A stretch of 49,732 nt of DNA from Magnetococcales bacterium DCbin4. Lineage in GTDB: Bacteria; Pseudomonadota; Magnetococcia; Magnetococcales; UBA8363. A program made the position numbers and the translations under genes. This document shows, one piece after another, positions 14,514-44,804 of this stretch. Within the stretch, counting starts at the first letter, position 1; every line of letters starts with the position of its first letter. The notes below the pieces were generated by a model. That model was not told where the DNA came from. It was given only the letters and a program-made list of their open reading frames with translations, and ran no database searches. The stretch spans positions 1 through 49,732 of the forward strand of contig PEAN01000029.1 in NCBI GenBank assembly GCA_002753735.1, given 5' to 3'.

Positions 14514-14589
14514 GGGGATGTAGCTCAATTGGGAGAGCGCCTGCTTTGCAAGCAGGAGGTCGTCGGTTCGATCCCGTCCATCTCCACCA
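14514..14589 (+). tRNA. tRNA-Ala(TGC)
   Basis: A 76-base tRNA. The acceptor GGGGATG pairs with CATCTCC, the anticodon stem CCTGC/GCAGG encloses TTTGCAA with anticodon TGC, and CCA is encoded. It lies immediately before the integrase region and is the likely integration target. Confidence 0.97.
14565..14589 (+). other. Candidate attachment site in the tRNA-Ala 3' end
   Basis: P4-type integrases usually recombine at the 3' end of a tRNA gene and leave the tRNA intact. The integrase here begins 162 bases downstream in the same orientation. No second copy of this tRNA end is visible elsewhere in the window, so the other junction was not found and the assignment rests on position alone. Confidence 0.35.
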
Positions 14590-14750: not shown

Positions 14751-15944
14751 ATGCCCCTGACCGATACCGCCATTCGCCAATCCAAGCCCGCCGACAAGCC
14801 ATACAAATTGACCGATGGTGGCGGTATGCATCTTTTGGTCAAGTCTGCGGGACGCTATTGGAGATTGGATTATCGTTTTGACGGGAAAAGGAAAACCTTG
14901 GCCTTGGGGGTCTACCCGGACGTGACATTGAAACAGGCTCGGGAGAAGCGAGAAGAAGCCAAGCGGTTGCTGGCAGAGGGAGTGGACCCTGGGGAGTTTA
15001 AAAAAGTTGCAGGAGTCAAAAGTACCGTCAGCGACGCGACGGTACTTTTTGAAAACGTGGCCAGGGAATGGTTCATGAAGCATGCACCATCCTGGGCCAA
15101 AGGTCATTCGGACAAGATCATCCAAAGATTGGAACGGGATGTTTTTCCCTGGCTGGGTGATCGGCCGGTCCATACCATTACCGCACAAGAACTGCTGGCG
15201 TGCATTCGCCGAATTGAGGCCAGAGGGACCATTGATACCGCCCACCGGGCATTACAGAACGCCGGACAGATTTTCCGCTATGCCATTGCCACAGGCCGGG
15301 CAGAAAGGAATCCAGCCACTGACCTGCGTGGGGCTTTGCCTCCCGCCAAAGAGGGCCACTTTGCCGCCATCACTGACCCGGTTGGGTTCGGGCAGCTGCT
15401 ACGCGCCATCGAAACATACCAGGGTTTCCTCCCGGTACGTTGCGCTCTTCGGGTTCTTCCCATGGTTTTTGTTCGCCCAGGGGAACTTCGAATGGCGGAA
15501 TGGACTGAATTCAACCTGGACGCCGCAGAATGGTCCATCCCCGCTGCAAGAATGAAATCCGGCCTGCCTCATATCGTCCCACTTTCCACCCAGGCTGTAA
15601 GTATTTTTAGAGACCTGCAACCATTCTCTGGACATGGACAATTTGTTTTCCCAACGCCCAGGAACAAAAACGCGCCTGTTTCCAACATGGCTTTTAATGC
15701 TGCGTTGAAAGCCATCGGATATTCCGGCAAGGAAATGACAGCCCACGGTTTTCGGGCCACAGCCCGTACGCTACTGGATGAGGTGTTGGGGTTTAAAATC
15801 GAATTGATCGAACATCAACTGGCTCATGCCGTTCGAGATCCGCTTGGTCGGGCTTACAACAGGACGACCCACCTCCCTGAACGTCGCAAAATGATGCAGT
15901 CCTGGGCGAACTACCTGGACGATCTGAGGCATGGAAGTTGTTGA
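14751..15944 (+). CDS. int: P4-type tyrosine integrase
   Basis: A 397-residue site-specific recombinase with the DUF4102/P4 N-terminal arm-binding domain (RQSKPADKPYKLTDGGGMHLLV). The core-binding domain spans about residues 95-190. The catalytic domain has R242 (VRPGELRMAEW), H332 and R335 (HGFRATAR), H359, and nucleophile Y369 (GRAYNRTTH). All catalytic residues are present, so it looks active. It follows tRNA-Ala and a terminator. The 50 bases before it contain TGTCGGTA twice (14701-14708 and 14713-14720), which could be arm sites. It marks the left end of the acquired region. Confidence 0.95.
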   Translation: MPLTDTAIRQSKPADKPYKLTDGGGMHLLVKSAGRYWRLDYRFDGKRKTLALGVYPDVTLKQAREKREEAKRLLAEGVDPGEFKKVAGVKSTVSDATVLFENVAREWFMKHAPSWAKGHSDKIIQRLERDVFPWLGDRPVHTITAQELLACIRRIEARGTIDTAHRALQNAGQIFRYAIATGRAERNPATDLRGALPPAKEGHFAAITDPVGFGQLLRAIETYQGFLPVRCALRVLPMVFVRPGELRMAEWTEFNLDAAEWSIPAARMKSGLPHIVPLSTQAVSIFRDLQPFSGHGQFVFPTPRNKNAPVSNMAFNAALKAIGYSGKEMTAHGFRATARTLLDEVLGFKIELIEHQLAHAVRDPLGRAYNRTTHLPERRKMMQSWANYLDDLRHGSC

Positions 15945-16025
15945 CTTTGTTATCTTCATGGTGCAATAACGGCCACGAGGAAAGCTTTGGGCTGGCAAGA
16001 GTCATGGCCACCAGGAGATGGTAAG

Positions 16026-16583
16026 ATGTTCAATGAGATAAAAACAGCGCAAGTGGCAATGTTATTCCTGGGTAAAACCCAAGAGGGCCGCATGTCACAT
16101 TTGAAGCTGATGAAACTAATGTATCTTGCGGATCGGGAGGCGGTGTTCAGAACAGGGTTGCCGATTACATGGGACCATCCTGTTTCGATGCCGCATGGAC
16201 CCGTGCTTTCCATGACGTTGGACTTGATGAATGGCAATGTCAGTTCACCACCAGGAGGGTGGGAAGATCTGATTTCAGCCAAAGAGAATAATGAAATATC
16301 AGCCCGCGTTGCTTTTGACGCAAGGTTCCTGACAAAATTAAGCGAGGCAGAGATTGATGTGCTTGAATTTGTCTGGGGTCGGTTTGGGAGGATGGGGAAG
16401 TGGGAGATCCGCGATTGGACACACGAGAATTGTCCTGAATGGGAAGACCCTGATGGTTCGTCTCGCCCGATCACCTTTCATACCTTGGCCCGATCCGTCG
16501 GGTTCAACGAGGATGCCGCGACAGAACTGGCAAACCTGGTTGCCGCAGGACAGGAAATTGACAAACTCTTTGCCTCATTATGA
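16026..16583 (+). CDS. Panacea-domain (DUF4065/SocA-like) antitoxin
   Basis: A 185-residue protein with the Panacea/SocA signature: KLMKLMYLADREA near residue 25, then the MPHGPVLS segment. Panacea proteins are the antitoxin half of many toxin-antitoxin pairs and can neutralise diverse toxins; SocA is a ClpXP adaptor for toxin SocB. The start at 16026 is supported by an AGGAGATGG ribosome site, while the TTG at 15987 is rejected. Its stop overlaps the ATG of the next reading frame (16580), the usual arrangement with a partner, but that partner appears cut short. Confidence 0.85.
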   Translation: MFNEIKTAQVAMLFLGKTQEGRMSHLKLMKLMYLADREAVFRTGLPITWDHPVSMPHGPVLSMTLDLMNGNVSSPPGGWEDLISAKENNEISARVAFDARFLTKLSEAEIDVLEFVWGRFGRMGKWEIRDWTHENCPEWEDPDGSSRPITFHTLARSVGFNEDAATELANLVAAGQEIDKLFASL

Positions 16584-16670: not shown

Positions 16671-16875
16671 ATGATGGACGACGACATCCTGATCCTGCGA
16701 GAAGTCGCGGAATATCTAAAGGTTACAGAGCGGACTATCTACCGGCTGGTGGCCAAGTAAGGAGGTCCCTTGCTTCAAAGTTGGAGGGGCGTGGCGGTTT
16801 CGGAAGACAGAAATCGAGGTTTGGATTCGAGAACGGTCATCTTTGCACGGCGACAAAAGAGCCCAAGGGGGCTGA
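16671..16875 (+). pseudogene. Small helix-turn-helix (excisionase-type) gene with frameshift
   Basis: Frame one from ATG 16671 gives a MerR/excisionase helix-turn-helix (ILREVAEYLKVTERTIYRL) ending at TAA 16758. The family's second half (CFKVGGAWRFRKTEIEVWI) follows in the +1 frame and ends at TGA 16873-16875. Removing the T at 16758 would join the two into a normal protein of about 67 residues. Either the gene is broken or the base is an assembly error. These proteins are commonly element-borne regulators or excision factors; this one lies just before the defence operon. Confidence 0.7.
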
Positions 16876-17010: not shown

Positions 17011-18837
17011 ATGAGCGTTAATCCCTTTCTCGACCAATTTCTTATGTTCTACAGCCAAGCCCGGGTCGGCAATGGGCAGACCCGTGGCCTGGAAACCGAA
17101 ATTTCCAGAAAAACCTATGTGGAAACCCGGCTGGATCGGGAATTGGCTGCCGGCATCATCCAAGGACGATTCCGTCTGGCCATCCTGACTGGAAACGCTG
17201 GCGACGGCAAAACGGCATTCATCCAGAAAATCGAGGAAGAAGCCACCCGTCGGGGAGCTGTTTTGGCCCGAACGGGGTTTGGAAATCAGTTTGAGCTGGA
17301 TGGCGTGTCTTTCCGAACGCTCCACGATGGCTCCGTGGAGTTGTCCGATTCCAGCAACCTCCAGATGCTGGACGGCTATTTCAGTGCTTATGCTGGCGAC
17401 GATCCTCCATCGGGCTATCAGTGTCTGGTGGCGGCCATGAACGAGGGTAAACTTCGAGATTATCTGCACGCCTCAGCGCACCACCCCTGGTTGAGTCGAG
17501 CTTTGCTGGGTCATCTTGATAACGACGTCCCTTTGCCGGACGATGTGGTTTTGGTAAACCTCAATCTCCGTGCCGTTGTGGATGGCTCCTCCGATCCCAC
17601 AGACTGCCTCTTTGACCGAATCCTGAACCGCTTCTTGGCACTGGAATTCTGGGAAGCGTGTAGGGAATGCCCATCCCGCCATGGATGTCCCGTCAAGTTC
17701 AACGTGGACAGCATGCGGATCGTTTCCGTCCCTTCCGATTCCGAAAACACTTCTGAATCCACCATCGCCCGGAACGAGTCTGCAAAAAAGGTCCGGTCCC
17801 GCCTCAAACGCCTGTTCCAAGTGCTACACCTGCGCAAACGGATGCACATGACGGTGCGTGATCTCCGCTCCGTACTGGCTTTCGCCCTGTTCGGCCTCCG
17901 GACCTGCGAGGAGATTGGACGAGTCATTCAGGAAGGCGGCCAGCGGTTCACCGATGACTACTATTACAACGCCATTTTCAATGAGGGTGAAAAGGATCGG
18001 GTGCTTCGGGTCATGGGCGAATTTGATGTAGGGCTTGTCCAGTCGCCCCATCTGGACAGCCAACTGAATTTCTCGGTTCCCAAATCATCCGATTTCCACG
18101 CCCTGTTCACATCCTTCGAGGATCAAGTGTCCGGATCGCGGGCATCCATCGATGAGGACGACATGGAGTTCCAATACCTGGAGCGTCCAAACAGTCCGGA
18201 ACAACGCACCATAGCGGCTCTGAACGCTTCCCGCGCCTATGTCCGGCAAGTCCGAAGGAAACATTATTTCGAGGGCAAATCAGCGGGCACCAATCCCAAT
18301 GGAGCGGATGCGCTGCTCCCCTACCACCATCTCGGGGATTATCTCTCTTTTGTGGAAAGTGGCGTGGACCTGGAAGGGCGGCTCAAGAACAGCCTGATTC
18401 TAGCCATTTCAAAAAGCGAGGGAATGATTGACGACCGCCGTGGGGCTGAGCATATCTGCATCCGCACCCGGCACGACAACAACCTGCCGGTGAAAGCATT
18501 CTACACCTACCCAGCCTCGCATTTCCGTCTGGACCGCCCGAGCCATCCCTATGAATCCCGCTTCATTGAGCACCTGCCGTCGGAAATTCTGTTGACCCAT
18601 GATTCCCGGGGAATCACGCTGGAGATCAGCCTGGACCTTTTTGAGTTGCTCATGCGAATTCGTGATGGCTACATCCCCACCACCGGTGAAATGCGGGCCT
18701 TCTTCCTGAACCTGCTCATGTTCAAAAAGCAGCTTCTGTCCGCGCCCACGGACCGGCTGCTCCTGACGGAAAACGATGATCAGGTCTTTGAAATGAAGCG
18801 GACACCAGACAACGGCATTGAGATGGCGGCGGTATAG
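17011..18837 (+). CDS. DptF-like ATPase of a DNA restriction system
   Basis: A 608-residue P-loop ATPase matching the DptF (DndF) component of phosphorothioation-dependent restriction in its motifs, size and gene neighbours. Walker A is at residues 61-68 (GNAGDGKT). A cysteine cluster (C199, C217, C220, C226, ending CP) could bind zinc or an iron-sulphur centre. The C-terminal half has no recognisable domain. The start at 17011 follows an AAAGGAC ribosome site; the upstream reading from 16906 is rejected. It is the first gene of a five-gene operon, 4 bases before the dptG-like gene. Known DptFGH cleaves DNA lacking phosphorothioate; the trigger here may differ. Confidence 0.78.
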   Translation: MSVNPFLDQFLMFYSQARVGNGQTRGLETEISRKTYVETRLDRELAAGIIQGRFRLAILTGNAGDGKTAFIQKIEEEATRRGAVLARTGFGNQFELDGVSFRTLHDGSVELSDSSNLQMLDGYFSAYAGDDPPSGYQCLVAAMNEGKLRDYLHASAHHPWLSRALLGHLDNDVPLPDDVVLVNLNLRAVVDGSSDPTDCLFDRILNRFLALEFWEACRECPSRHGCPVKFNVDSMRIVSVPSDSENTSESTIARNESAKKVRSRLKRLFQVLHLRKRMHMTVRDLRSVLAFALFGLRTCEEIGRVIQEGGQRFTDDYYYNAIFNEGEKDRVLRVMGEFDVGLVQSPHLDSQLNFSVPKSSDFHALFTSFEDQVSGSRASIDEDDMEFQYLERPNSPEQRTIAALNASRAYVRQVRRKHYFEGKSAGTNPNGADALLPYHHLGDYLSFVESGVDLEGRLKNSLILAISKSEGMIDDRRGAEHICIRTRHDNNLPVKAFYTYPASHFRLDRPSHPYESRFIEHLPSEILLTHDSRGITLEISLDLFELLMRIRDGYIPTTGEMRAFFLNLLMFKKQLLSAPTDRLLLTENDDQVFEMKRTPDNGIEMAAV

Positions 18838-18841
18838 ACCC

Positions 18842-20608
18842 ATGGCGAGTCAACGAGAAAAAAGCCTTCTTACCCGACAGCAGAAGCTCTTCCGCATGCC
18901 CAAAATTAATCTGCTCGACGCCAATGCCATCGACGTGGAGGAGGCCATCAGCCGTTTGTTCATTTTTCTGCGTACTGGTGGCCGTTTGATCCGCAGGACG
19001 GACAAACTGATTTTTACCGATGATGGGCCGGATGCCGAATCCCCCTCAACCGTGGTGAATACGGTCCTGGACGAGGCCGGGGGGAAGTTTCATGGCATTA
19101 CGGATGATCAGCGCCGAAGCTTGGTAGCTGGATGGTTCGACTCCCATTTCGCCATGACCAGCCGACGCGGCAAAAGTGCTGGCGGGGAGTACCGGATGTC
19201 GGGCCTGCGCCCCCTCCATTATGCCATCATCAAGCTGTTCAACCCTCGGGTGCGCAGCCAGGACCGCTATTTGAGCGACTTCTTTTACAATGCCATCCGG
19301 ACCGATCCCGTCCTGACGGGCAATACCGATTCCGTTTTTCGAACTTTTTTTGGTGTGGGCGTCGTGCCGTATGGAGACAACGATTATCGGATCAATGAAA
19401 CCGAATTGAGCAATCTGGCGAGACAGGGGCAGCTGGACGTTGAGTTGACCTTTCTGCTCAGAATGGTTGAGCCCTTTCCCGCGGACAAATACAGCCCAAA
19501 AAAGGAAGACCAGGTATTGCCGGTGGCATTCCTGTGTGAGGAGCAGATTGATCTGCTGCGCCAGGACCTGAAACTGCTGTTCATCTACCGGGAGCACATT
19601 CCGCGCCGGGAACTGATCAGCTACATGACCACCCTGATGGTGTTCCATGCCGCCCTCTATTTTTTTCAGGTGGTTCGGATTACCAATCACATCGCGGAGC
19701 GGCGGCAGCCCCCACCCACTCGGGGAGAAGCGCCCCTTCCTGGCGACCCCCGCAGTCACGCCCCCTTTGCACTGGATATTTTTTGCGACTGCGCCAATGG
19801 GCACGACGCCACCATCGACGGTTTGGCCAAGCAGTCCTACCTGCGCCATTTCAAGGAAGTGGAGCGCTATTTCCGGTCCGCCTACCTTTTGAAGAAGTTG
19901 GACGAGTTCGCCAATCAGTACATGACAGCCGACCAGAAGCGGCAGAGCGGCCCTGGTTATCTTGATTTCCTGGTCCAGGTGTTTCTCTCCCATAAGGATC
20001 TCAACGGTTTTTTCGCCCGGGACATCGAGCAGGTTCGACAGGCCGGCCTGGACGAGGAAACCGGGGAGTACAACCGGGAGATCGAGGCTACCATCGACAC
20101 GGCCAACCGACGGGGACTCAACAAGCTACAGACCTTTGTGGAGATCCTCTATCACTGCCAGTACCCGACGTTGCGGGAGCAGCACCGGAAGCTGCTGGCG
20201 GGGTTGGGCCGAATCGACCAGGACAGCGGCTTTCTCGCCGGAAAAGGACGCCAGAAGCGGAAATACGTCCTCGGCAACGAATTGTTGGAGGTGCTGATTC
20301 AACTGGCCGTGCTCAAGCCCGTTGCATCCGATGGCAGTTGGGGATCCAAACCCATCCCCATCAGTGAATTCGTAGATTGGCTCAAGGGCCGCTACGGCCT
20401 GCTGATCGACACGGCGGGGCCGGAGGTGGAGGAGAACGAGGAGATCAACCGAGCTTTGGCGGCCAACATGGCGGCCTTGAAAACCCGACTGAGACAACTC
20501 GGCTTTTTTACCGATCTGGCCGATGCCTCCAATTCCCAGGTGATCACGCCCCGCTTCCGCATTCAGGGCGCGCAGATTGAAACCCAACCTCCGGCCACGG
20601 CCGCGTAA
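18842..20608 (+). CDS. DptG-like restriction component
   Basis: A 588-residue protein without a clear enzymatic motif. I assign it as DptG-like mainly from its place between the DptF-like gene and the DptH-bearing end of the operon, its approximate size, and an alpha-rich, charged sequence. It is longer than DptG proteins I know (about 440 aa). DptG is part of the DptFGH complex and has no established catalytic role. The start at 18842 sits 4 bases after dptF; ATG at 18896 (MPKINLL) is a plausible alternative. A profile search would be needed to settle the family. Confidence 0.6.
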   Translation: MASQREKSLLTRQQKLFRMPKINLLDANAIDVEEAISRLFIFLRTGGRLIRRTDKLIFTDDGPDAESPSTVVNTVLDEAGGKFHGITDDQRRSLVAGWFDSHFAMTSRRGKSAGGEYRMSGLRPLHYAIIKLFNPRVRSQDRYLSDFFYNAIRTDPVLTGNTDSVFRTFFGVGVVPYGDNDYRINETELSNLARQGQLDVELTFLLRMVEPFPADKYSPKKEDQVLPVAFLCEEQIDLLRQDLKLLFIYREHIPRRELISYMTTLMVFHAALYFFQVVRITNHIAERRQPPPTRGEAPLPGDPRSHAPFALDIFCDCANGHDATIDGLAKQSYLRHFKEVERYFRSAYLLKKLDEFANQYMTADQKRQSGPGYLDFLVQVFLSHKDLNGFFARDIEQVRQAGLDEETGEYNREIEATIDTANRRGLNKLQTFVEILYHCQYPTLREQHRKLLAGLGRIDQDSGFLAGKGRQKRKYVLGNELLEVLIQLAVLKPVASDGSWGSKPIPISEFVDWLKGRYGLLIDTAGPEVEENEEINRALAANMAALKTRLRQLGFFTDLADASNSQVITPRFRIQGAQIETQPPATAA

Positions 20609-20620
20609 GGAGTTATTGCC

Positions 20621-22786
20621 ATGGCCAGACGAGCGGCGACCGCGACAAAAAGAACAACAGCTTCCAAACCATCTCTGGACACGTTGCCGGAAATTCCGGA
20701 TGAACAGGACGGCCCGGATCTTCAGGATGGCCAGGTACTGGACCTGATCACCGGCCAGACAGTCAAGCTCACCGATGTGGAGGGTTTCCGCCAGGAAGAG
20801 GCGCGCAAGCTGCTGGAGGAGTTCGGCTATCCCCAGGACCATTTGCGCCGGGATTTTAGCATCAAGCCCATCCAACTCAAGGCGCGCAAGCTGCCCCTGG
20901 TGGTGCTCCGGCAGTCCACTGCACCCAGGCAGCCGGATGCGGAGCGGGTGATGGTCCTGATGGCCATCGAGAACCCCAAGACCAAGGCGGACGACAGCAA
21001 GCGGGGGGCGGAAGTCCTGGCCGAGTTCCTGCGGGACACCCCGCATGCCGAATACGCCGTCTGGACCAACGGTACTGACCGGGTGGTTTATTGGAAGGAG
21101 TCCGGCCGAATCAAAGTCCGCACCCTTCTGGTCAACGACATACCCCGCCGTGGCCATGGGCCCGAGGACTGTTTCGCCATTGGCAAGCAGGCGCTTCGCG
21201 CTGCCTCCGGGCTTTCACTGCGGCAGGCTTTCCAGCGTTGCCACAACTACATCTACGCCAACGATGGCGGCAGCAACGAGGCGGTCTTCTGGGAGTTTCT
21301 CAAGATCGTTTTCGCCAAGATTCAGGATGAGCGTCGTTTGCAACGGGCAACCGCCAAAGGGCCTGAAGAGGAACGCCTGTTCCGCATCGCCGACATTGCG
21401 GAGCGCAACGACCCAGCCAAAGCGGTCCATGTGAAAGAGCGCATCGAGCGCCTTTACGGCGAGGTGCGTGCCGCTTATCCGGAACTTTTTTCCGGGCAGG
21501 TGGACACGGTGCAATTGAAACCGGAGACCACCGCCTACGTGGTAGCGCAGATCGGCCACTATGACTTTCTCAACTCCTCGGTGGATGTGAAGGGCGAGGC
21601 TTACGAAGCCATTGTTGGCAAGAACTTGGAGGGAACCCGGGGGGAGTTCTTCACGCCCCGCAACGCCGTGAAACTGGCGATCCAGATCCTGGATCCCAAC
21701 CCGGAAGACAAGTGCATCGATCCGGCGTGCGGAACCGGGGGCTTCATCGTCGTCATCCTCAACTACATCGCCGAAAAGATAAAACGGGCGATGCGGGAAA
21801 AGGGGCAGGATCCGGATCACAAAGACCAGCCGGAATATGGGCGGCGGTTGAAATGGGCCTCCCAGCGGCTGTTCGGGACCGACATCAATCCCAATCTGGT
21901 GCGCGTGGCGCGTATGAACATGGTGATGAACGATGACGGCCAGGGGGGCATCACCCACCTGGATGGATTGGACCGGCCCGAGCGGTGGCAGTTTCCCCGG
22001 AAGAACCACAAGGTGATGCAGAAGAACGGGACCTGGACGGAAGAGCGCATCGATGATTTTTTCCGCAGGGAGCTGGTGGAGGGGACCTTCGACATCGTCG
22101 CCACCAATCCCCCATTCGGCACCAAGATCAAGATTGATTCCGAGGCCATCCTTTCCCAATACGACCTGGCCCGCAAATGGAGTTTCGACCAGGAGCGCGG
22201 CCTGTGGTCCGCCACCCCCACCCTGCAAAACGGCGTCGCCCCGGAGATTCTCTTCATCGAACGCTGCGTCAAGTTGCTGAAGCCGGGGTCCGGCAAGTTG
22301 GGCATTGTTCTGCCGGACGGCATTCTGGGCAATCCGGACGATGAATACATCCGGGTCTGGCTGTTGCGCCATTGTGAGATCCTTGCCCTGGTGGACATGC
22401 CGGTGGAGCTGTTCCTGCCCAAGGTGGGGATCCAGACCCATCTGGTTTTCGTGCGCCGCAAGTCCACCGAAGAGATGAACCGGGAGAGCCTGGGAGGAAA
22501 AGCCAATGACTATCCCATCTTCATGGCCATCGCTAAAAAGGTGGGCAAAGATCGGCGGGCCAACCCCATCTACAAGCGGGATCCCGATGGCCGGGTGTTG
22601 GACCATTTCCGAGGATTCAACGGGCAGGATCTCCATAAACAGTGGCGCGGGGCTACGGTGTTGGACGATTTTCCGCCGGTGGATGAGTACGGCCGCATGC
22701 AGGACGACGATCTCCCCTTTGTCGCCCGGGCTTGGCGCAAGTTCGAGCGGGACCGGGCCAAGGGGAAGGTGAACTATGATCGTTGA
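20621..22786 (+). CDS. N6-adenine DNA methyltransferase (HsdM type) with N-terminal type I R-like domain
   Basis: A 721-residue modification subunit. Residues about 70-165 resemble the N-terminal domain of type I restriction subunits (HSDR_N), but the acidic/lysine signature reads E117-N-P-K120 instead of E-x-K, so nuclease activity is doubtful. The methyltransferase domain has the AdoMet motif DPACGTGGF from D367 and catalytic NPPF at 496-499, as in HsdM, which transfers a methyl group to adenine N6. A helical HsdM N-terminal region spans about 200-330. The gene starts 12 bases after the dptG-like gene, and its stop overlaps the specificity gene start. No hsdR gene is present. Confidence 0.93.
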   Translation: MARRAATATKRTTASKPSLDTLPEIPDEQDGPDLQDGQVLDLITGQTVKLTDVEGFRQEEARKLLEEFGYPQDHLRRDFSIKPIQLKARKLPLVVLRQSTAPRQPDAERVMVLMAIENPKTKADDSKRGAEVLAEFLRDTPHAEYAVWTNGTDRVVYWKESGRIKVRTLLVNDIPRRGHGPEDCFAIGKQALRAASGLSLRQAFQRCHNYIYANDGGSNEAVFWEFLKIVFAKIQDERRLQRATAKGPEEERLFRIADIAERNDPAKAVHVKERIERLYGEVRAAYPELFSGQVDTVQLKPETTAYVVAQIGHYDFLNSSVDVKGEAYEAIVGKNLEGTRGEFFTPRNAVKLAIQILDPNPEDKCIDPACGTGGFIVVILNYIAEKIKRAMREKGQDPDHKDQPEYGRRLKWASQRLFGTDINPNLVRVARMNMVMNDDGQGGITHLDGLDRPERWQFPRKNHKVMQKNGTWTEERIDDFFRRELVEGTFDIVATNPPFGTKIKIDSEAILSQYDLARKWSFDQERGLWSATPTLQNGVAPEILFIERCVKLLKPGSGKLGIVLPDGILGNPDDEYIRVWLLRHCEILALVDMPVELFLPKVGIQTHLVFVRRKSTEEMNRESLGGKANDYPIFMAIAKKVGKDRRANPIYKRDPDGRVLDHFRGFNGQDLHKQWRGATVLDDFPPVDEYGRMQDDDLPFVARAWRKFERDRAKGKVNYDR

Positions 22787-24269
22787 GGCCCTGCGCGTGG
22801 TGGAAGAGAGCGATCCCCTGGCCCCGTTTGCTGGCGGCGAGACCTTTGCCGTTCACGCCTCAGAGGTACGGCAAGGCGCCACCCGCCTGCAGGGGGAGTT
22901 CTACGGCAGCGATGGCTACCGGGCGGTGCAGGCGTTGGAGGAGTCGGGGTTTGATCTTGCAGGAGTGAAAACTCTTGCGAACACCGTCTGGCCGGGCATC
23001 TTTTCCAGAAACTATATCCAGGATCCGCATCGGGGAGTTCCTTTCCTCACAAGTAGCGAAATGCTTGTCGCCAATCCCGAGCCCAAATATATTTCTAGCG
23101 TTTTCACTCCTGACCTTGAATCAATCACTGTCCACAAAGGGACGATCCTTATATCCAGGTCCGGCACGGTCGGGAAGGTTGCCGTCGTTAATGATCAGAT
23201 TGATGGCTGGGCCGTAACTGAAGATGCGCTTAGGGTCAATCCATCCAAGCCCGTTGACCTTGGGGTTCTCACTGCCTTTTTCTTCAGCAGCGCCGGCCAG
23301 TTTCTCCTCACCCGCAACAAGTCTGGCTCCGTGGTGGAGCACATCTACGCCGCCGACGTGGAGGGACTGCCCATCCCCCGGCTGCCGCTCCGGCTCAAGG
23401 AGAAGCTGACCGCGTTGATCCTGGAGGCGGGCGAATTGCGGGTGGAGGCGAATGGGCTGCTAAGAGAGGCGGACATCGGCGTACATAATATTCTTGGCGA
23501 AAAAATCTTAGCACCACGCATTGAGGCGATATTGCCTTGTACCTTCATTGTAGGAGCACAAACTCTTGACACACATATAGGGAAGAGGTCTCAGTGGAGA
23601 CTTGATGCATCTTTTTATGAGTCATCCTCTAGAATCTTAAGTGAAAAAATCCAGTCTTTACGGACTTCAATCTCAATAGACGATATTGCTATTGAGGTTA
23701 TAAGAATAGGAAAGACATTTATTCCTGGCGTTCATAAAGTTGAAAGAGAATATGGAATTCCTTACCTCACTGGGAAAGAATTATTCAAAATTAGAATGAA
23801 TCATGAAATATTCATCGGCTCTTCCAATCATACGTTCCTTTCAAGAATTGCAGTGGAAAAAGGGTTTGTTCTCATTACATCGGGTGGAACAATAGGTAGA
23901 GTCATGTATGTGAGAGGGAATTTCGAAGGGTCTGCCGTCAGTGAAGATGTGCTTAGGATCGTTCCAAATGGCAACATCCACCCTGGATACATTTACTCAT
24001 TTCTCGCGTCGTCTTTTGGTCAATCCCTGATTCAGCGTTATAGCTATGGATCAGTTATTCCTAGAATTCACAGAACGCATATTGAGGATATCTCAATTCC
24101 AATTCCTGATGACAACGGAAAAGAAATTGGGCAAAAAGTAGATGCCGCCTTCGACAAACGCGCCGAGGCTTTGGCCCAGGAGAACCGCGCCATCGCCCTG
24201 TTCGAGGAAGCGTTGCGCCGGGGCCGGGAGCGGACCGAAACCGACTGGGGCCGGGAGTATGACGCATGA
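22776..24269 (+). CDS. HsdS-like DNA specificity subunit
   Basis: A 497-residue type I specificity subunit with two target recognition domains (about residues 60-220 and 290-450) joined by helical spacers (about 205-240 and 450-490). The repeated signature of the family appears in both halves: a GTVGKV-like turn after ISRS in the first and GTIGRV after ITSGG in the second. The subunit would direct the methyltransferase, and possibly the Dpt proteins, to a bipartite sequence. The second recognition domain (about 23,480-24,150) is strikingly AT-rich against GC-rich flanks, suggesting recent domain exchange. Start and stop both overlap the neighbouring genes. Confidence 0.92.
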   Translation: MIVEALRVVEESDPLAPFAGGETFAVHASEVRQGATRLQGEFYGSDGYRAVQALEESGFDLAGVKTLANTVWPGIFSRNYIQDPHRGVPFLTSSEMLVANPEPKYISSVFTPDLESITVHKGTILISRSGTVGKVAVVNDQIDGWAVTEDALRVNPSKPVDLGVLTAFFFSSAGQFLLTRNKSGSVVEHIYAADVEGLPIPRLPLRLKEKLTALILEAGELRVEANGLLREADIGVHNILGEKILAPRIEAILPCTFIVGAQTLDTHIGKRSQWRLDASFYESSSRILSEKIQSLRTSISIDDIAIEVIRIGKTFIPGVHKVEREYGIPYLTGKELFKIRMNHEIFIGSSNHTFLSRIAVEKGFVLITSGGTIGRVMYVRGNFEGSAVSEDVLRIVPNGNIHPGYIYSFLASSFGQSLIQRYSYGSVIPRIHRTHIEDISIPIPDDNGKEIGQKVDAAFDKRAEALAQENRAIALFEEALRRGRERTETDWGREYDA

Positions 24270-27200
24270 GCGACGCCACCCTCCATCGTCTGCCGGATCA
24301 GGCCCTCATCGATGCCCAGATCGATGCCCTGTTCCAGGAACTGCACGGCTTCCTGCTCACCAAGCAGACCGGCCACTGCCAACGCATCGACTATCTGCCC
24401 CGCCCGGTGCTGGAGGGGTTGACCCGAAGACTTGCGGAGGATCCGGAGCTGGTCCGGCGCAAAATGGTCTGCCGCATGGTCACCGATCGGCCCATCGCCA
24501 CGGATGACAAGGGGTGGCAGGTCACCGGCAGTGGCGCTGTGGCCCTGCGGGAGCACGCCACTGTAGGGGAGATTCACCTCTTTACTGCCCTGTTCCCCGC
24601 CGGCGTCAGGCTGGCGGAGGAGGACAGCCTCAATATCGCCACCTTCAAAACCGATGATGCCGACAGCTTTGACATCCGCCGCTGCCTGGAGCGGGCGCTC
24701 CAGGGGCGGGTCAATCAGCTCCCCGGGGCTGAAAAAAGCCTGCTGGCCACCATCCTGGCCCTGGAGCCGGTCAAAAGCCGCCCAGTGGTGGACCGTCTGC
24801 GCTGGACCCTGGCGGTCCTCAACCAGCGGGACCAGACCGGCCAACCCGCCAGTTGGGAAACCGTCGGCGCATTCCTGCACGAGCTGAACCTGATCCCCGA
24901 CTTCGACCTGTCCGGGGACCATCTGGGAGAGCAGATCACCCGCAACGCCCGGTGCATCTCCGTCCTGACCGACGGCGAGCGCACCCTGGGTCAGTCACTG
25001 GCCCATCTGACCGGCGAAATCGGCGTCGATGATCCCAAACTGATCCAGGAACTGGATATCTGGCTCAGCGGCAAGGATCTGCTGAAACCCCGCCAATGGC
25101 TCCCCGACATCGCCCATGACCCGGTCGTGCGGGAAAAACTTTCCTTCGACGTCTGGAGATTTGCCGCCCCGGTTCGGGGCGTGACCATCGACCTGAAACC
25201 GCTCCAGGACCCCAACAAGCCGGAAAAAATCAGCAAGGGGCTGGAGGTCAAGCAAGGCACGTTATGCAACGACGGCAAAAAACCGGTGCAGATCCGCTGG
25301 ACCACCGAACCCAAGAAACCCGAAGACCTGGCCGGCTACCGCATTTCCGTTGTCCGCCAGACGGAGGATGGCGGCGAGGTGGAGGTGACTACCCCCCAGA
25401 CCATCAACGCCCGGCGCAAATCATTCATGACCCCAATGGCGGGCAACAACCTGGACGATGATGAAAAATGCGTGGTCTGTATCCGCATCCAGGGCCTGAG
25501 CAAGACCGGAACGCCCATCGCCAATGCCAGCGATGAGACCGAGGAGTTCTGGATCGAAAACGGCACCGAGATCAGCACACCGCCTCCCGCGCGCACCGCG
25601 AAGCTGCGCCACCGGGGCGAATTGCGCTTCCGGGCCGTCCACCGCACCGGCAAAAAGGTGGAAATCCGCAATCAGGATTGGGATCTGAAGCGGAACCACA
25701 TCTTTTCCATCCGCCTTTCCACCCAGGAACGCGGCGATCTGGTCCTGAATCCGGTCCTTAAGGCAGTGGAACGAGCCATTCTGGAAAACCCCAACACCCT
25801 GGGCATGCTGACCGCTGATCTGGTCAGCAAGCGCAAGGCCGAAGTGGCGGATTTCAAGCCGTTTCCCTTCCCTCCATCCCTGGATCCGGAAGTCAATGTC
25901 TTCTTCCAAGCCCGATCGGCATTCTTCGCCGCCGTGCGTGATCTGCACAACGGCACGGGGGTGGTTGAGATTGCCGACCTGCATGCCCTTGAAACGGAGG
26001 TTAAAGCCTACATCGAAAGCTATATGGGGCTGCTCCGGCGCTTTTCCATGCGGGTTTCCGGATCCTCCGGACAGAGCGCCATCAACACCACCCTGCATGA
26101 TCTGGCTTCCATCCTGCGCATCGACACCATCACCTTGCGGGTGGGACCAGTCGAATCCCCCATGGAAGTCGCGCTTCTGGCGCCTACCCATCCCCTGCGG
26201 GTGTTGTGGCTGTTTCAGTACGAAACCTTCGTGCGCCTCTGGATCGACGCCATGATCGGCAAAAGCCCGGACCAGATTGAACGGATGATCGCCGAGGACA
26301 GCATCGACAAGCTGGTCAACCTCAACCTGCCCCATGCCCTCTCCTGGTCCCAGGGGCAGGCATTCTTGAATACCGACAACATCGATCTGTACTGGGGCGT
26401 CTTTCCCGACACCCGGCTGCCGGACATGCGCACGGCGGTCGCCACCACTCTGCGGGTGCTGGGGGCCACCCAGCGTCAGGCGGTGATCACCACCGTCACC
26501 CCCCGGCAAATCGCCGACAAGCTGGAACGCTATCTCGCTCACCATCCCTATGTGGAAACCTTCCGGATCAACGTGGTCAACCCCGGCGACGGGGCCCTGA
26601 TCCTGGAAGCCATGATGGAGCTTCTGGGCAAGGAGCTTTACCAGGATCTCAATTTTGATCTGACTTTTTTCTCCGCCCCCGGTACGCGTCCCCACCGCAT
26701 CGGTCAGGCGTTGGACGACTTCATGGCCCAGATCAGCGATCAGGATTGGACCAGCGGCGTCAATCTTTCCGAGGTGGCCGAGCGGCTCATGCAGCCCAAC
26801 GCCAACCCCCTGTTTCCCAAACTGGTGTATGCCAAACATTCGGTCAGCGCCTTGTTGGAGGATGACCAAAGCCGTTTCGATGCCCACGTCACCTTCGTGC
26901 TGGACTATTTCGGCACCACTGTGGCCACCCGCGCCCATCAGGGCCCCATGGGTAGCGCCACCATTCATAACCTGATCGTGGAGTACCTGACCGATTACTC
27001 CGCCGGCACCACATCGGCAACCTGGTCACGGATGGTAGTTCCCCACCAGTGCCCGGATCTCGCCGCTGATGACGTCACCCGAAGGCTGTTTTTCTGCCAC
27101 GCCCAGTTGAATCATCTGACCGCATCCTGCCTGGACTGGGACAACAGCACCGGCAAGAACATCTCCGTTCAACTGGAGTTGAGCGATGCCCAAGGAAAGA

Positions 27201-29533
27201 ACCACCTGAAACTGCTGCGCCGGGTTCATCAGGCCTCGGATTGGGTGCTGACCATCGACCGAAACTTTGGCATCGAGTATTACGACGATCCCGATCATGG
27301 ACCAGCCGCCAGCGCTTCCGGGGGCTACCTGATCGACTATTCGCCGGAATTTCTGGATGCGGTCTCCCATCGCCTCATCATCTCCACGGCCCATCAGCAG
27401 GAGATCGCCAGCATCCTGCACAAGGGATTCGCCAACCTTCTCAACACCGAAAACGGGATTTCCTCCTTCACGGTGGCCACCGTTCTTCAGGTGTTGAAAT
27501 CAGTCTCCGGCAAGCTGCCCTTGAAGTTGATCAACAATCCCAGCCAAGCCCAGGAGGTAATCGGTCTGGCCCTGACCCGTTTGGCGTTGGAGCAAGCCGG
27601 ACGCTTGCGTGGACGCGTGTTGATTCCTGTGGATAGCCACATCGATCTGTTTTACCAGACGCCCCGGGAACTGGATAACCAGGAGTTGACCCTTAAACGA
27701 ACCGACTTGATGTTGGTGGAGCTGCAAGGGCGTCACCTGCATGTGGCCCTCATTGAAGTCAAGAACCGCGCCCATTCCACGCCTCAAGAGCAGATTGATC
27801 TTCATGAGGCCATCTGGGACAAGAACAAGAATACCGAGGCCCATTTCCGGGCTCACTTCCTGGGACAAGGAGCCATCCAGCGCTTTGACGCAGCCATCAA
27901 GAACAAGCAATTGGCCAACATCCTGGCTTTCTATTTCGAACGGGCCAGCCGTTACGGGCTGTTTGCCTCCGGAGATGACCAAGGACCGAACCTGGAGTCT
28001 TTCAGGGAAGGACTGCGCGCCGTCGAGGCGGGATCCAGCGAAGTGAGTTTTAGCCATCAGGGGTTCATCATCAACGGCAGCGCCCTCCACCGCCAGGAGA
28101 CAAAGACAGTTCACGGCAACGATATCACCACCATTGGCCGGGCCGGCGTCCGTGAACTGCTGCGCTTGGTCATGGATGAGGATCAGGACGAGGAACCCGT
28201 TCCAGATAAGGGTGAACCCGGACCGGTGCCTGAAGAGCCTGAAGAGGGCATGCCCGACGAGCGGGAAGAGGTGGCTGTTCCGGAATCTGAAGAAGCGTTG
28301 CCGGAAACATCCGCTGGCGTATCGAACGAACCTCAACCGGAAACAGTACCAGCAGATGGCGAGCCTACCGACTCAACCAAGCCAGAGGCACAGAAACCTC
28401 CATCACCCCGGCCGGCTGGTTCTGGTCAACTGGATATCTTGCTGGGCCGCAATGAGGTGACCGGCGAATCCATGCGCTGGAACCCCTACACCACCACGCC
28501 GCGTCGTCTGACAAACCAGCACATCCTGATCGTCGGAAAAAGCGGTTCGGGGAAAAGTGAGACCACCAAGGCGGTCATTTGGGAGTTGGCGCGCCGGAAT
28601 GTACCGTCCATCATTTTCGATTTCCAGGGGGAGTACGCCAGCGGACAATTCTTCGATGCCGTTCAGCCACAGGTCTTCAACGTCATGGATGGCCTGCCGG
28701 TCAACCCATTTGAGTTGCCACAGGATCCGTTGACCGGCAAGAAAAAAAGCTTTGTCGAGATGATCTTTGGGTTGGCCGATACTCTGAATTCGGTCTTTCG
28801 GGGATCGGGGGATATCCAACTCGGCATTCTTCGGGAGGCTATTGAGGAATGCTACGTCCAGCAGGGATTCACGCGGGATCCGGCAACCTGGGACAACCAA
28901 CCGCCGACCTTGGACATGCTGGAGGCGGTTCTAAAGCATTTCGCCGACGAGCGAGGTGGTCAGGTCAGAAACCTGTTGGTGCGTCTCCAGCCCCTTTTCA
29001 AGAGCGGCATTTTCCATCCGGATGCCCACACCTTCGAGTTCGATAAGCTCTTTGACCGGACCACCGTCCTGCTCATGACCTCCGGGATAAAGGATCTGAT
29101 GGTGGCCGCCAGCCGGTTCATGCTGGAGAAAATATATGCCGCCATGTTGACGGCTGGGGTTTCCAAGCAGGTCAAGGTCATGGTGGTAGTCGATGAGGCG
29201 CACAAGCTCTGCGGAGATGAAACCATCACTTCTTTGATCAAGGAAGCCCGCAAGTATGGGCTTGGCCTGATTCTGTCATCCCAGGAAACCAGGGATTTTC
29301 ACCCATCTGTTTTTCTCAATACGGGTACTCTCGTATCCCTGGCCCTGGAGGATGCTGACGCAACCGTCATGGCCAAACAGCTGGGCCTTACGGAAAAAAC
29401 CGATCAGAAGCGGGCCAAGGAGATGATTCTGAATCAAGGAAGTGGGCAGGCGCTGATTCGCTCTCAACACTTCCTGCCATACAAGCAGATGCAGATAAAA
29501 TCGTTCGACGAACGGATTGAGGAAGGAGATTGA
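24266..29533 (+). CDS. DptH-like giant restriction protein with HerA-type ATPase
   Basis: A 1755-residue protein of the size and plan of DptH (DndH). Residues 1-1100 contain no motif I can name. A PD-(D/E)XK-like nuclease motif may lie at D1123/D1127, D1147, E1164 and K1166 (IEVK). An acidic, proline-rich linker covers about 1300-1390. The C-terminus is a HerA/FtsK-type ATPase with Walker A at 1424-1431 (GKSGSGKS) and Walker B ending D1643-E1644, suited to DNA translocation. The ATG overlaps the hsdS-like stop, so expression is coupled. It probably supplies DNA movement and possibly cleavage; the cleavage assignment is inference. Confidence 0.85.
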   Translation: MSDATLHRLPDQALIDAQIDALFQELHGFLLTKQTGHCQRIDYLPRPVLEGLTRRLAEDPELVRRKMVCRMVTDRPIATDDKGWQVTGSGAVALREHATVGEIHLFTALFPAGVRLAEEDSLNIATFKTDDADSFDIRRCLERALQGRVNQLPGAEKSLLATILALEPVKSRPVVDRLRWTLAVLNQRDQTGQPASWETVGAFLHELNLIPDFDLSGDHLGEQITRNARCISVLTDGERTLGQSLAHLTGEIGVDDPKLIQELDIWLSGKDLLKPRQWLPDIAHDPVVREKLSFDVWRFAAPVRGVTIDLKPLQDPNKPEKISKGLEVKQGTLCNDGKKPVQIRWTTEPKKPEDLAGYRISVVRQTEDGGEVEVTTPQTINARRKSFMTPMAGNNLDDDEKCVVCIRIQGLSKTGTPIANASDETEEFWIENGTEISTPPPARTAKLRHRGELRFRAVHRTGKKVEIRNQDWDLKRNHIFSIRLSTQERGDLVLNPVLKAVERAILENPNTLGMLTADLVSKRKAEVADFKPFPFPPSLDPEVNVFFQARSAFFAAVRDLHNGTGVVEIADLHALETEVKAYIESYMGLLRRFSMRVSGSSGQSAINTTLHDLASILRIDTITLRVGPVESPMEVALLAPTHPLRVLWLFQYETFVRLWIDAMIGKSPDQIERMIAEDSIDKLVNLNLPHALSWSQGQAFLNTDNIDLYWGVFPDTRLPDMRTAVATTLRVLGATQRQAVITTVTPRQIADKLERYLAHHPYVETFRINVVNPGDGALILEAMMELLGKELYQDLNFDLTFFSAPGTRPHRIGQALDDFMAQISDQDWTSGVNLSEVAERLMQPNANPLFPKLVYAKHSVSALLEDDQSRFDAHVTFVLDYFGTTVATRAHQGPMGSATIHNLIVEYLTDYSAGTTSATWSRMVVPHQCPDLAADDVTRRLFFCHAQLNHLTASCLDWDNSTGKNISVQLELSDAQGKNHLKLLRRVHQASDWVLTIDRNFGIEYYDDPDHGPAASASGGYLIDYSPEFLDAVSHRLIISTAHQQEIASILHKGFANLLNTENGISSFTVATVLQVLKSVSGKLPLKLINNPSQAQEVIGLALTRLALEQAGRLRGRVLIPVDSHIDLFYQTPRELDNQELTLKRTDLMLVELQGRHLHVALIEVKNRAHSTPQEQIDLHEAIWDKNKNTEAHFRAHFLGQGAIQRFDAAIKNKQLANILAFYFERASRYGLFASGDDQGPNLESFREGLRAVEAGSSEVSFSHQGFIINGSALHRQETKTVHGNDITTIGRAGVRELLRLVMDEDQDEEPVPDKGEPGPVPEEPEEGMPDEREEVAVPESEEALPETSAGVSNEPQPETVPADGEPTDSTKPEAQKPPSPRPAGSGQLDILLGRNEVTGESMRWNPYTTTPRRLTNQHILIVGKSGSGKSETTKAVIWELARRNVPSIIFDFQGEYASGQFFDAVQPQVFNVMDGLPVNPFELPQDPLTGKKKSFVEMIFGLADTLNSVFRGSGDIQLGILREAIEECYVQQGFTRDPATWDNQPPTLDMLEAVLKHFADERGGQVRNLLVRLQPLFKSGIFHPDAHTFEFDKLFDRTTVLLMTSGIKDLMVAASRFMLEKIYAAMLTAGVSKQVKVMVVVDEAHKLCGDETITSLIKEARKYGLGLILSSQETRDFHPSVFLNTGTLVSLALEDADATVMAKQLGLTEKTDQKRAKEMILNQGSGQALIRSQHFLPYKQMQIKSFDERIEEGD

Positions 29534-30861: not shown

Positions 30862-31086
30862 TCAAACGAAATACACCGGCGCGTCCATCACATCTTGAAC
30901 CCGAAAAGTCCGCCCATCCCGAACAGCCACCCGATCACCAACCCTGATCCCTTTAGCAAACGCGACTTCGACCACACCCTTCCTGGTGGCCACCTGAGCC
31001 AAACTACCATCAACAGACACCACCATCCCGGCCAAAGAAGCCTTCCATGCGAGAATTTCTCGCAGGTCAAACACTGGATTGGACAT
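30862..31086 (-). CDS. Small phage protein, first copy
   Basis: A 74-residue protein beginning inside the end of the hub gene (20-base overlap) with a GGAG site at suitable distance. It is beta-rich with two short repeated-looking strands (VVSVDGSLAQVATRKGVVEV and GDRVAVRDGRTF). Its position after a hub/late-control-type protein suggests a baseplate or spike accessory role; the family is not recognised. Confidence 0.65.
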   Translation of the reverse strand: MSNPVFDLREILAWKASLAGMVVSVDGSLAQVATRKGVVEVAFAKGIRVGDRVAVRDGRTFRVQDVMDAPVYFV

Positions 31087-32455
31087 ATCGCAACAACTCC
31101 AACGATGTGATCAGTTTCGCCCCGGCGGCGGAATGGCTGACGGAGGTAATCTTGCCGCGCCAGGATTGGCCCATCAAGGCGTCGTGGACTTCGACCAACT
31201 GTCCCGGCATGAACCCTGGCCGATGCAGGCAGGACAATGAAACCTCCTGGAGTGATTCACCCGCATCGATTTCCGCCCGGCCACGGGAACGTTTGGCCTC
31301 GTCACTGGTCAGGAGCGGATCGGAAATGTCCAGACCACGAAAAGCCCCATCGCCCCGCTGACAATAGATTTCCCCCGATCCCAGGATTTCCCGGGTGGAG
31401 CCGACAAAGTGGACGTTGACCGGAAATTCATCCAGCCCCGCCACCATGGGTGGAGCGTACAGCCTCCAGGCTTTGGCGCGAGTGCGATAGGTCACCCGGG
31501 CGATGGCGACACCGGCGTTGGGAACGGTGAGGGTGCGGTCGTCTGCCTCTCGGGAAAGGGGTCCAAGATTGTTGCCGATCCAAATGACCGAGTCGATGGC
31601 GGAAGCGGGTTTGTCCAGGGTAGCGGTTGCCGTGCCGTTGAACACAACGTCCTGGGTCACCTTCATTTCCTGCCATGGTCCGGGCCGGATCACCCCGGCG
31701 GACACGAGTGGATCGGCCAGGGAGACTTCTTTGCCCGCATGGACCAGGAGGTTGGCGGTGTCGCCGCTGTAAAAGGTGGTTCTCCCCTGGTTCGGGCCAT
31801 CGGGACGGGCATCGACCTCGACAGAAAGAAATCCGTCACCAGACGGCAAATAACCACGGACCAGAACCTTGTTGACCCTGTTGCGCAGGACATGGGACTC
31901 GCGACAGGATAAGTTGTCTGATTCATCGGTCAAAACATGGTCTACGCTGGCCGTCGCCCACCCGGGAACTGAAACTGGAAACCGATGCCGAACACGCAAT
32001 GTCCCATCCGGCAAAGACTCCACCAAACCGCCGACCGCATCAACAATAGTCCGCACAACATCGAGGGGTGACGCTTCATGAACCGCCAAACGCCCACCCG
32101 GAATGAGCCAATTCACCAAGTCCCACCGGATACCCTCGCCAACGGCTTCTTCAGCAGCGTCTCTGGCCCACACGGGTTCATCCCAAGTCTTATCCATCGG
32201 TTTCGCCCGTGGCGCAACAAACCTGGCCGTCGGACTGACCACCGATACCGTGAGTCGTGGCATGCCAACGCCATCCCGCTCCAGCGTTTTGTTGTCAACC
32301 ATCAACTTGAACATCTCACCACCCAGTTCCAGATCGATGGGATCATCGATGCGGATGCGCTGAAACGATGCCGGATTCGTTACCTCCAAACTGCCAGCCC
32401 AGGCAAAATCCTGTTCAGCCTGGGACAGGGTAGCAGAAATGACGGAGCCGATCAT
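31067..32455 (-). CDS. Phage tail hub / late-control-like protein
   Basis: A 462-residue phage protein. The C-terminal portion (about 385-462) has the pattern PGQLVEVHDALMGQSWRGKI ending in SVSH, like the final domain of tail hub proteins such as late-control protein D. The N-terminal third is beta-rich (QRIRIDDPIDLELGGEMFKL). Start and stop overlap neighbouring genes. Its place between receptor/distal-tail genes and the small spike-like genes supports a baseplate role. The assignment rests on pattern and position. Confidence 0.6.
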   Translation of the reverse strand: MIGSVISATLSQAEQDFAWAGSLEVTNPASFQRIRIDDPIDLELGGEMFKLMVDNKTLERDGVGMPRLTVSVVSPTARFVAPRAKPMDKTWDEPVWARDAAEEAVGEGIRWDLVNWLIPGGRLAVHEASPLDVVRTIVDAVGGLVESLPDGTLRVRHRFPVSVPGWATASVDHVLTDESDNLSCRESHVLRNRVNKVLVRGYLPSGDGFLSVEVDARPDGPNQGRTTFYSGDTANLLVHAGKEVSLADPLVSAGVIRPGPWQEMKVTQDVVFNGTATATLDKPASAIDSVIWIGNNLGPLSREADDRTLTVPNAGVAIARVTYRTRAKAWRLYAPPMVAGLDEFPVNVHFVGSTREILGSGEIYCQRGDGAFRGLDISDPLLTSDEAKRSRGRAEIDAGESLQEVSLSCLHRPGFMPGQLVEVHDALMGQSWRGKITSVSHSAAGAKLITSLELLRYVQSSV

Positions 32456-38328: not shown

Positions 38329-38527
38329 TGAACATATCATCACCCAGGAAGAATATGACGAAATTCCAGAGTTGACGGACGAATGGTTTGAACAGGCGGA
38401 TCTGTACGAAGGTGGCAGGTTGGTCCGTCGTGGCCGCCGTTCTGAGAAAGATTGCGCTACCTCAACCCCCGCGTCATGTCCTGTAATGTCCGCACCAATC
38501 CGCGAATCTCATCCCGTGGGGCGGTGA
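38282..38527 (+). CDS. brnA: BrnA-like antitoxin with abnormal C-terminus
   Basis: The 81-residue product begins like BrnA (AKIDEHIITQEEYDEIPELT, then LVRRGR) and starts inside brnT with an AGGAAA site, as usual. After about residue 55 the expected ribbon-helix-helix DNA-binding domain is missing. The rest (CATSTPASCP and on) is simply the antisense of the tape measure gene end, overlapping it by 71 bases. BrnA normally binds BrnT and represses the operon through the missing domain, so neutralisation and autoregulation may be impaired. Confidence 0.7.
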   Translation: MNESNHGLGSNLAKIDEHIITQEEYDEIPELTDEWFEQADLYEGGRLVRRGRRSEKDCATSTPASCPVMSAPIRESHPVGR

Positions 38528-43211: not shown

Positions 43212-43570
43212 GGCCAAAGGTTCCCCCGACATGTCCAATTTTCTTTTGCATGAATCCGGCAGTCCGATCTACAGTGGGTCCATGAAAACAGACCGCACCC
43301 TCCATCGGCACATCCACACTGCGTTGGCAGTGATCACATCGATGCTCGCCAGCGATTTTGTTTCCCGGAAACCGTCCCGACTCAAAAACCGGAAAGAACA
43401 AAGGCTTCATCACCTCACTGAAATCTGGATGATGATTGGCAAGACAAGTGGCATTGGCTCCCTGGTCACCATTCCCATCGCCAATTCTTGTCCATGGTTT
43501 ATTCAACTGTTCATCGGGTGGTTTTTTGTGACCCTCTTGTTGATGTGTTTGGGTCCTCTTCTGCGATTTT
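43212..43570. other. Unassigned region between tail chaperone and tape measure genes
   Basis: Two opposite open frames cover these 359 bases. On the minus strand an ATG at 43410 has a GAGGTG site and encodes a possible zinc motif (CDHCQRSVD, then CFHG), but this frame runs 166 bases into the tape measure gene. On the plus strand an ATG at 43282 gives about 103 residues with a hydrophobic C-terminal segment (WFIQLFIGWFFVTLLLMCLG). I cannot decide between them, and neither is claimed as a gene. Confidence 0.35.
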
Positions 43571-44047: not shown

Positions 44048-44788
44048 TCAATTCTCCACCATCCTGATGGTGCAGAACGCGCTGATATCCACACCGGTTT
44101 TGGTATCGTCCTTCAGGACGGTGCCGGTCAGGGTCAACGCGGCAAAATCGTCACTGATCAAAGAGAGATCCTTGGGCGGAGAGAATTTGACCCGGTGCAT
44201 CTCGACAGACATCGGCTTACCAGCTCGGGCGAAATTGGTACCTGAAAAAATGATCCGGTACTCGTTGCCAGCACTGACCAGCGTCTGGATGATGGTCCCG
44301 GCAGTCGTAGTATAGGAAACTTTGACCGCTGTCCCGGCGTCGCTGATGATGGTCGATGCGTCCGACATGATCAGACCGGCGCTGGTGATCTCGTATTCGC
44401 TGGCCGGAATGACCGAATCGTCCGATGTCTTTTTCACCGTGACCGACGTGGGACCGATTCCAGCCAGAGGCAGAAGTCCACCACGGTATGCGATATGCGC
44501 CTCATCGGTTACGGCCACTGATGCCTCCGCCGAATCCACACCCCGCAAGGCCATGGCCAGATTTTTGCTGGAGATGCTGGCAAAATTGAATGAGGCTTCC
44601 ACCTTGGTGATGAAACTGACACTGTCGGACAGCCCACCGCCCCCTTCATAATTCTTGAGTTCCTTGGTCTCCTCGGAAACCTCCAGTTTGAACTCCTTGA
44701 CCTGCCCAACGTGACGCATTTTTCCACCGGAACGCAGTCCGACGAAAATCTTCCCCTCGCCAATGAGACTCCACTGACTGGATGTCAT
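44048..44788 (-). CDS. Phage major tail tube protein
   Basis: A 246-residue protein immediately before the chaperone gene. It is beta-rich with the tail tube pattern of an N-terminal GEGKIFVGLRSGGKMRHVG segment, a central Ig-like region with AGTAVKVSYTT, and a C-terminal GTVLKDDTKTG. The start at 44788 has an AAAGGA site; the longer reading to 44938 is antisense to other sequence and is rejected. High expression would be expected. Confidence 0.72.
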   Translation of the reverse strand: MTSSQWSLIGEGKIFVGLRSGGKMRHVGQVKEFKLEVSEETKELKNYEGGGGLSDSVSFITKVEASFNFASISSKNLAMALRGVDSAEASVAVTDEAHIAYRGGLLPLAGIGPTSVTVKKTSDDSVIPASEYEITSAGLIMSDASTIISDAGTAVKVSYTTTAGTIIQTLVSAGNEYRIIFSGTNFARAGKPMSVEMHRVKFSPPKDLSLISDDFAALTLTGTVLKDDTKTGVDISAFCTIRMVEN

Positions 44789-44804
44789 GTCTGAATCCTT
44801 TGTT

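Follow-up and report, generated by a model that had tools for sequence, protein, structure and literature searches.

What kind of system is encoded by a five-gene operon in which proteins resembling DndF, DndG and DndH are accompanied by a DNA methyltransferase and a specificity subunit? The window, i.e., the stretch of 49,732 nucleotides of Magnetococcales bacterium DCbin4 that was analysed here, had been described in an earlier note as carrying a hybrid of a Dpt machine and type I modification, with the methylation-associated defence system (MADS) mentioned as a possible relative. The five genes and the identities assigned to them in that note agree with the open reading frames and profile searches of the current study (Table 1). 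The genes were also correctly described as touching or overlapping: they are separated by 4 bp and 12 bp and then overlap by 11 bp and 4 bp (positions 17011-29533), on the basis of which they are considered an operon with the gene order mad6-mad7-mad2-mad5-mad8. An alternative TTG start of the mad7-like gene is located at position 18818. In tblastn searches, mad3 and mad4 were not found in the window, and mad1 was found only as a frame-broken gene, represented by two adjoining matches to MAD1 in different frames with a joint E-value of 4e-6.

Table 1. Features of the window, with positions, strand and supporting evidence
Feature	Position	Strand	Evidence or remark
tRNA-Ala	14514-14589		Adjoins the tyrosine recombinase gene
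Tyrosine recombinase	14751-15944	+	Pfam Phage_integrase, Arm-DNA-bind_3, Phage_int_M
SocA/Panacea-domain protein	15987-16583	+	PF13274, E 9e-22
mad1-like excisionase-type HTH gene	16674-16833	+	tblastn; frame broken at ~16750-16770
mad6-like, short form, 608 aa	17011-18837	+	DndF/SspF-type P-loop NTPase core only
mad7-like, 588 aa, DndG/SspG-like C-terminus	18842-20608	+	NF047733 and SspG models
mad2-like N6-adenine DNA methyltransferase, 721 aa	20621-22786	+	NF047738; motifs I and IV
mad5-like specificity subunit, 497 aa, two Methylase_S stretches	22776-24269	+	NF047740, PF01420
mad8-like giant protein, 1755 aa	24266-29533	+	BLAST to MAD8; nuclease motif; HerA
Prophage tail region, 3' of the operon	29561-49732	-	
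Tail protein	31067-32455	-	Prophage tail region
Tape measure protein	38457-43238	-	Prophage tail region
Major tail protein	44048-44938	-	Prophage tail region

MADS, with component genes mad1 to mad8, is introduced in a passage of PMC12904381 that cites Maestri et al. 2024. The canonical loci used as reference, namely those on annotated plasmids of Piscinibacter, Hymenobacter and Bacteroides and two whole-genome loci, are composed of mad1, mad2, optional mad3-mad4 (also missing from several canonical loci), mad5, a kinase-fused mad6 of ~1390 residues, mad7 and a mad8 of ~1850 residues. BLASTP comparison of the window proteins with the Piscinibacter MADS set returned identities of 36% for MAD2, 27% for MAD5, 27% for MAD7 and 31% for MAD6, the last of these restricted to the C-terminal half of the Piscinibacter protein (residues ~776-1388 of 1391), and residues 6-1232 of MAD8, i.e., about its first 1250, are 26% identical to canonical MAD8 (E 5e-87). 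In profile searches, MAD7 scores 410.7 bits against NF047733 (MADS7; E 1e-122) and thereby passes the NCBI curated cut-off of 410, as does, with 425 bits, its counterpart in L021, the closest sister locus (see below); the window's MAD7 also matches SspG models (E 5e-7). MAD2 matches the full NF047738 profile (MADS2) with 696 bits, just below the cut-off of 720, MAD5 matches NF047740 (MADS5) over its full length with 340 bits (cut-off 400), and MAD8 scores 52 bits against NF047742 (MADS8 N-terminal), below the cut-off of 175, though its BLAST homology is clear. No window protein matched the NF047741 profile, which represents the NERD-kinase-kinase half of MAD6.

As judged from these comparisons, all five window proteins are orthologues of MAD6, MAD7, MAD2, MAD5 and MAD8; MADS is the system that the earlier note had mentioned as a possible relative. 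The hybrid framing of that note is not borne out, because the methyltransferase and HsdS are MAD2- and MAD5-like and not borrowed parts. The operon is classed, at the level of sequence, as a kinase-free sister subtype of MADS, and is set outside canonical MADS because it lacks the MAD6 kinase half, its gene order differs and its MAD8 falls below the model cut-off. The novelty lies in the absence of the MAD6 kinase half and in the rearranged order of the genes, both of which had escaped the earlier note; no description of a kinase-free subtype was found in the literature searched, which did not extend to the original MADS paper.

The distribution of this subtype was surveyed by a MAD2-alignment scan of 84,980 species genomes, from which the best 80 of 308 loci were retained, ranked by similarity to the window's MAD2 and thus not a census. 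The ten top-ranked loci of these best 80 of 308 (L021-L030) are of the window type. The same five-gene order, for which the earlier note had proposed a neighbourhood survey, is complete in seven of the ten, with mad6 in its short form, while the three others are cut by contig ends and are in agreement with it. Their hosts belong to Geobacteraceae, Halochromatium, several Bacteroidota, a Terriglobia (Acidobacteriota) MAG and one MAG labelled Atribacteria, thus spanning four or more phyla. The canonical order 2-5-6-7-8 with a kinase-fused MAD6 was found in 44 loci among the best 80 of 308. The window-type loci form one side of a branch in the MAD2 tree (SH-aLRT 100), and none of 500 label shuffles was as clustered. 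The kinase-free form is a subtype with a gene order of its own.

Among the searched records, plasmids carried kinase-fused MAD6 forms only, and phage records and viral contigs yielded no MAD7 relatives. On plasmids of Rhizobium anhuiense (L121/L122) and R. phaseoli (L123), genes for a kinase-fused F protein, a protein of the size of G and a giant ATP-binding protein follow one another. Either two DNA methyltransferases of other kinds adjoin them or none does, and they represent further FGH-plus-modification combinations. In a kinase-containing MADS locus of Bacteroides, mad8 is immediately followed by a gene for a PP2C phosphatase (L013:22121-22786), which may be a counterpart to the MAD6 kinase.

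In canonical MAD6, a NERD domain and two kinase stretches make up the N-terminal ~770 residues. By tblastn, this half was found neither in the window nor in the ten sister loci, while it was strongly detected in the control locus L014. In the six sister loci whose mad6 is complete, the short MAD6 proteins measure 591-613 aa and share a common start point, and kinase-fused MAD6 reading frames of >1200 aa have a median length of 1387 residues. The Walker A motif GNAGDGKTAF is invariant, and a cysteine cluster (C217/C220/C226) is conserved. The window's MAD6 matches SspF/DndF models (E 3e-28 and 5e-5); in comparison, MAD6 cores are far from the Dnd/Ssp F proteins. Across 398 genomes of the host's phylum, a strong match to short MAD6 is present only in the genome of the window, while kinase-fused MAD6 (open frames of >1300 aa) occurs in three others and weak matches in two. 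The AlphaFold model of MAD6 is of low confidence (pLDDT 60) and returned no meaningful PDB match, nor was anything useful retrieved when the sequences of MAD6 and MAD7 were compared with the PDB; MAD7 probably binds DNA.

MAD6 and MAD7 were not detected in the seven genomes of the same genus that were searched, which is consistent with a mobile island. The integrase upstream of L021 is 48% identical to the tyrosine recombinase of the window, and the 3' end of tRNA-Ala is not repeated elsewhere in the window as an attachment-site copy. The SocA/Panacea protein, encoded between integrase and operon, is a part of the island that lies outside the defence core; it was not found by similarity in the flanks of the sister loci and is possibly an antitoxin or regulator.

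MAD2 is recognized as an N6 methyltransferase (Pfam E 2e-32) with intact motifs I (DPACGTGGF) and IV (NPPF), and MAD5 as an HsdS protein (PF01420, E 3e-14). The best PDB match of MAD2 is RM.BsaXI. Its HsdR_N-like N-terminal domain is degenerate, the D..ExK residues being gone, unlike in related stand-alone methyltransferase-specificity proteins, which retain them. MAD2-MAD5 pairs, or a fused methyltransferase-specificity protein of ~1100 residues, also occur without mad6-7-8, i.e., in Actinomycetota (L031, L032, L037) and in Bacillota and Synergistota (L046, L048, L064, L081, L100); their MAD2-like proteins are the closest kin of the window-type MAD2 branch, and those that were aligned have an intact N-terminal D..ExK. 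An additional MAD2-like reading frame is present in 23 loci and takes the place of mad3-mad4 in canonical loci such as L049 (11956-13977), L054, L066, L073, L078, L086 and others. Six such second genes that were aligned encode NPWF versus NPPF in motif IV and an altered motif I (such as DCSSGTGTF), from which it may be that the product is an inactive or re-purposed methyltransferase partner.

MAD8 consists of an N-terminal MAD8 region, a PD-(D/E)xK motif at residues ~1121-1166 and a C-terminal DndH-type HerA domain at ~1390-1735, whose Walker A and B motifs are located downstream of the PD-(D/E)xK pattern. The residues P1121-x-D1123-x-H1125, R1145-x-D1147 and E1164-x-K1166 show no variation among 14 MAD8 proteins, which represent both branches. 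The HerA C-terminus matches the DndH model (E 1.8e-42), better than it does the mad8 model, and the best-scoring stretches of the DndH models on MAD8 lie from residue 1368 on only, with no DndH homology found over the N-terminal ~1300 residues. DndH-C (PDB 7ES4) is the top match of this domain in a PDB sequence search (E 9e-18), and likewise of its predicted fold (E 7e-20, TM 0.81), which was modelled with high local confidence, while the model of the middle region is of low confidence. The HerA version of the window's MAD8 is unlike that of canonical MAD8 and closest to that of DndH.

We consider it probable that the operon encodes a methylation-guided restriction system from a sister branch of MADS that lacks the kinase. 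In this system, MAD2 (M) and MAD5 (S) would form a type I-like methyltransferase, which would mark self DNA by N6-methyladenine on a bipartite motif. MAD6, MAD7 and MAD8 would assemble into a DndFGH-like machine, in which the MAD6 NTPase may sense or license, MAD7 would contact DNA, and MAD8 would combine HerA-driven translocation with cutting of unmodified incoming DNA by its PD-(D/E)xK domain, presumably conferring phage resistance; activation in the kinase-free branch would not need the NERD-kinase module. The logic put forward in the earlier note, i.e., methylation of self and attack of unmarked DNA, is a reasonable one, in which the marks and the cutting are what we infer.

Alternatively, as has been proposed for BREX, the system could block phages without cutting. 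In this case, MAD8 would translocate and thereby stall replication or packaging, and its nuclease motif would have a structural or regulatory role. The restriction step of both MADS and BREX is listed as mechanism unknown (PMC12904381), and for HerA/FtsK domains, roles in segregation, conjugation or packaging have been suggested (PMC10853773). However, the invariance of the PD-(D/E)xK residues in both branches is hard to explain without catalysis, and we regard this alternative as unlikely.

Another possibility is that the kinase step takes place but relies on a protein acting in trans, such as PglW, the NERD-kinase protein of a co-resident BREX system. The best match of the host genome to the MAD6 kinase half is indeed a BREX PglW on contig C118, and PglW, the N-terminal half of which resembles that of MAD6, is also present in the Halochromatium sister genome. 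However, the MAD6 kinase half finds no match at all in five of the ten sister genomes, several of them draft MAGs; this speaks against the need for a trans-acting kinase and renders such an arrangement quite improbable. The pglW gene of the host (L119:7619-11947; 1585 bits) is located near a contig end beside acr3 and mutS, and the host probably carries a BREX locus too.

Partner genes elsewhere were searched for in the host genome, a draft of 96% completeness in which an unlinked partner could escape detection. No dnd/ssp modification genes and no intact hsdR are present in the operon, and neither a match to dndC (TIGR03183) nor an intact hsdR was found anywhere in the genome, in line with the absence of Dnd modification genes and hsdR remarked upon in the earlier note. 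The sole hsdR match, on contig C65, is a fragment of 215 aa from the N-terminus of HsdR; it lies next to an exosortase-associated gene, and no methyltransferase was recognized among the neighbours scanned around it. A standalone Dpt/DndFGH or SspFGH module, joined to a type I methyltransferase and HsdS independently of MADS, would account for the SspF/DndF matches of MAD6 and for a HerA domain that favours DndH over the mad8 model. This explanation is nevertheless very doubtful: MAD7 exceeds the MADS cut-off, MAD2 and MAD5 match MADS models over their full length, MAD8 aligns with canonical MAD8 over its first ~1250 residues while the DndH models cover HerA only, and the MAD6 cores are distant from the Dnd/Ssp F proteins. 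It is scarcely credible that a canonical MADS locus has decayed in the host genome through loss of the kinase half and accessory genes: the mad1-like gene is indeed frame-broken, but the same short MAD6 with the same start in six sister loci speaks against local decay, the five genes are open with intact catalytic motifs, the gene order differs too, and no upstream kinase remnant was detected by tblastn.

A natural kinase-free, five-gene version separates a core predicted to methylate, sense, translocate and cut from the kinase layer; it is small enough for testing, links MADS to DndFGH and points to the PD-(D/E)xK domain of MAD8 as the likely effector. Tentatively, the kinase-free form may be an ancestral or fully independent MADS type, a minimal FGH restriction machine guided by methylation, and canonical MADS may have acquired its PglW-like NERD-kinase sensor at a later stage; in that case, MADS and DndFGH would constitute one family with exchangeable modification chemistries and sensors. 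As the NCBI MAD6 model covers the kinase half only, and MAD2, MAD5 and MAD8 of the window lie below their cut-offs, kinase-free loci probably escape recognition as MADS in cut-off-based annotation.

Among known systems, MADS shares with the operon long-stretch homology in MAD2, MAD5, the MAD6 core, MAD7 and MAD8, including the MAD8 nuclease motif, whereas the operon lacks the NERD-kinase half of MAD6 and mad3/mad4, has a different MAD8 HerA and is arranged as 6-7-2-5-8 instead of 2-(3-4)-5-6-7-8. With DndFGH/SspFGH it shares the F-G-H logic of a P-loop NTPase, a G protein and a giant protein that combines a nuclease motif with HerA, as well as the HerA domain itself, for which the structural model points to DndH-C (7ES4) as best match; it differs in lacking dnd/ssp modification genes and in including a methyltransferase and HsdS, and its G protein and MAD8 N-terminus score higher as MADS. 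The same architecture was described for Dnd F, G and H by Rakesh et al. (PMC10853773), who also reported that some DndF variants, which match MAD6, carry NERD and kinase domains and that DndH has repeatedly captured HerA domains of different kinds. Type I/IIB systems (EcoKI; RM.BsaXI) have in common with the operon an N6 methyltransferase and a two-domain specificity subunit, MAD2 being nearest to RM.BsaXI, while the operon is devoid of an HsdR helicase, its MAD2 has lost the nuclease-like site, and restriction is apparently performed by MAD8. Finally, BREX type 2 (PglW/PglX/PglZ) is likewise a methylation-based defence, and the NERD-kinase-kinase module of its PglW is common to canonical MAD6. 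This module of PglW is also noted in a later BREX paper (PMC12839542), which cites the work in PMC10853773 as its authors' own; the operon, in contrast, encodes neither PglZ, nor a PglX-type protein, nor a kinase.
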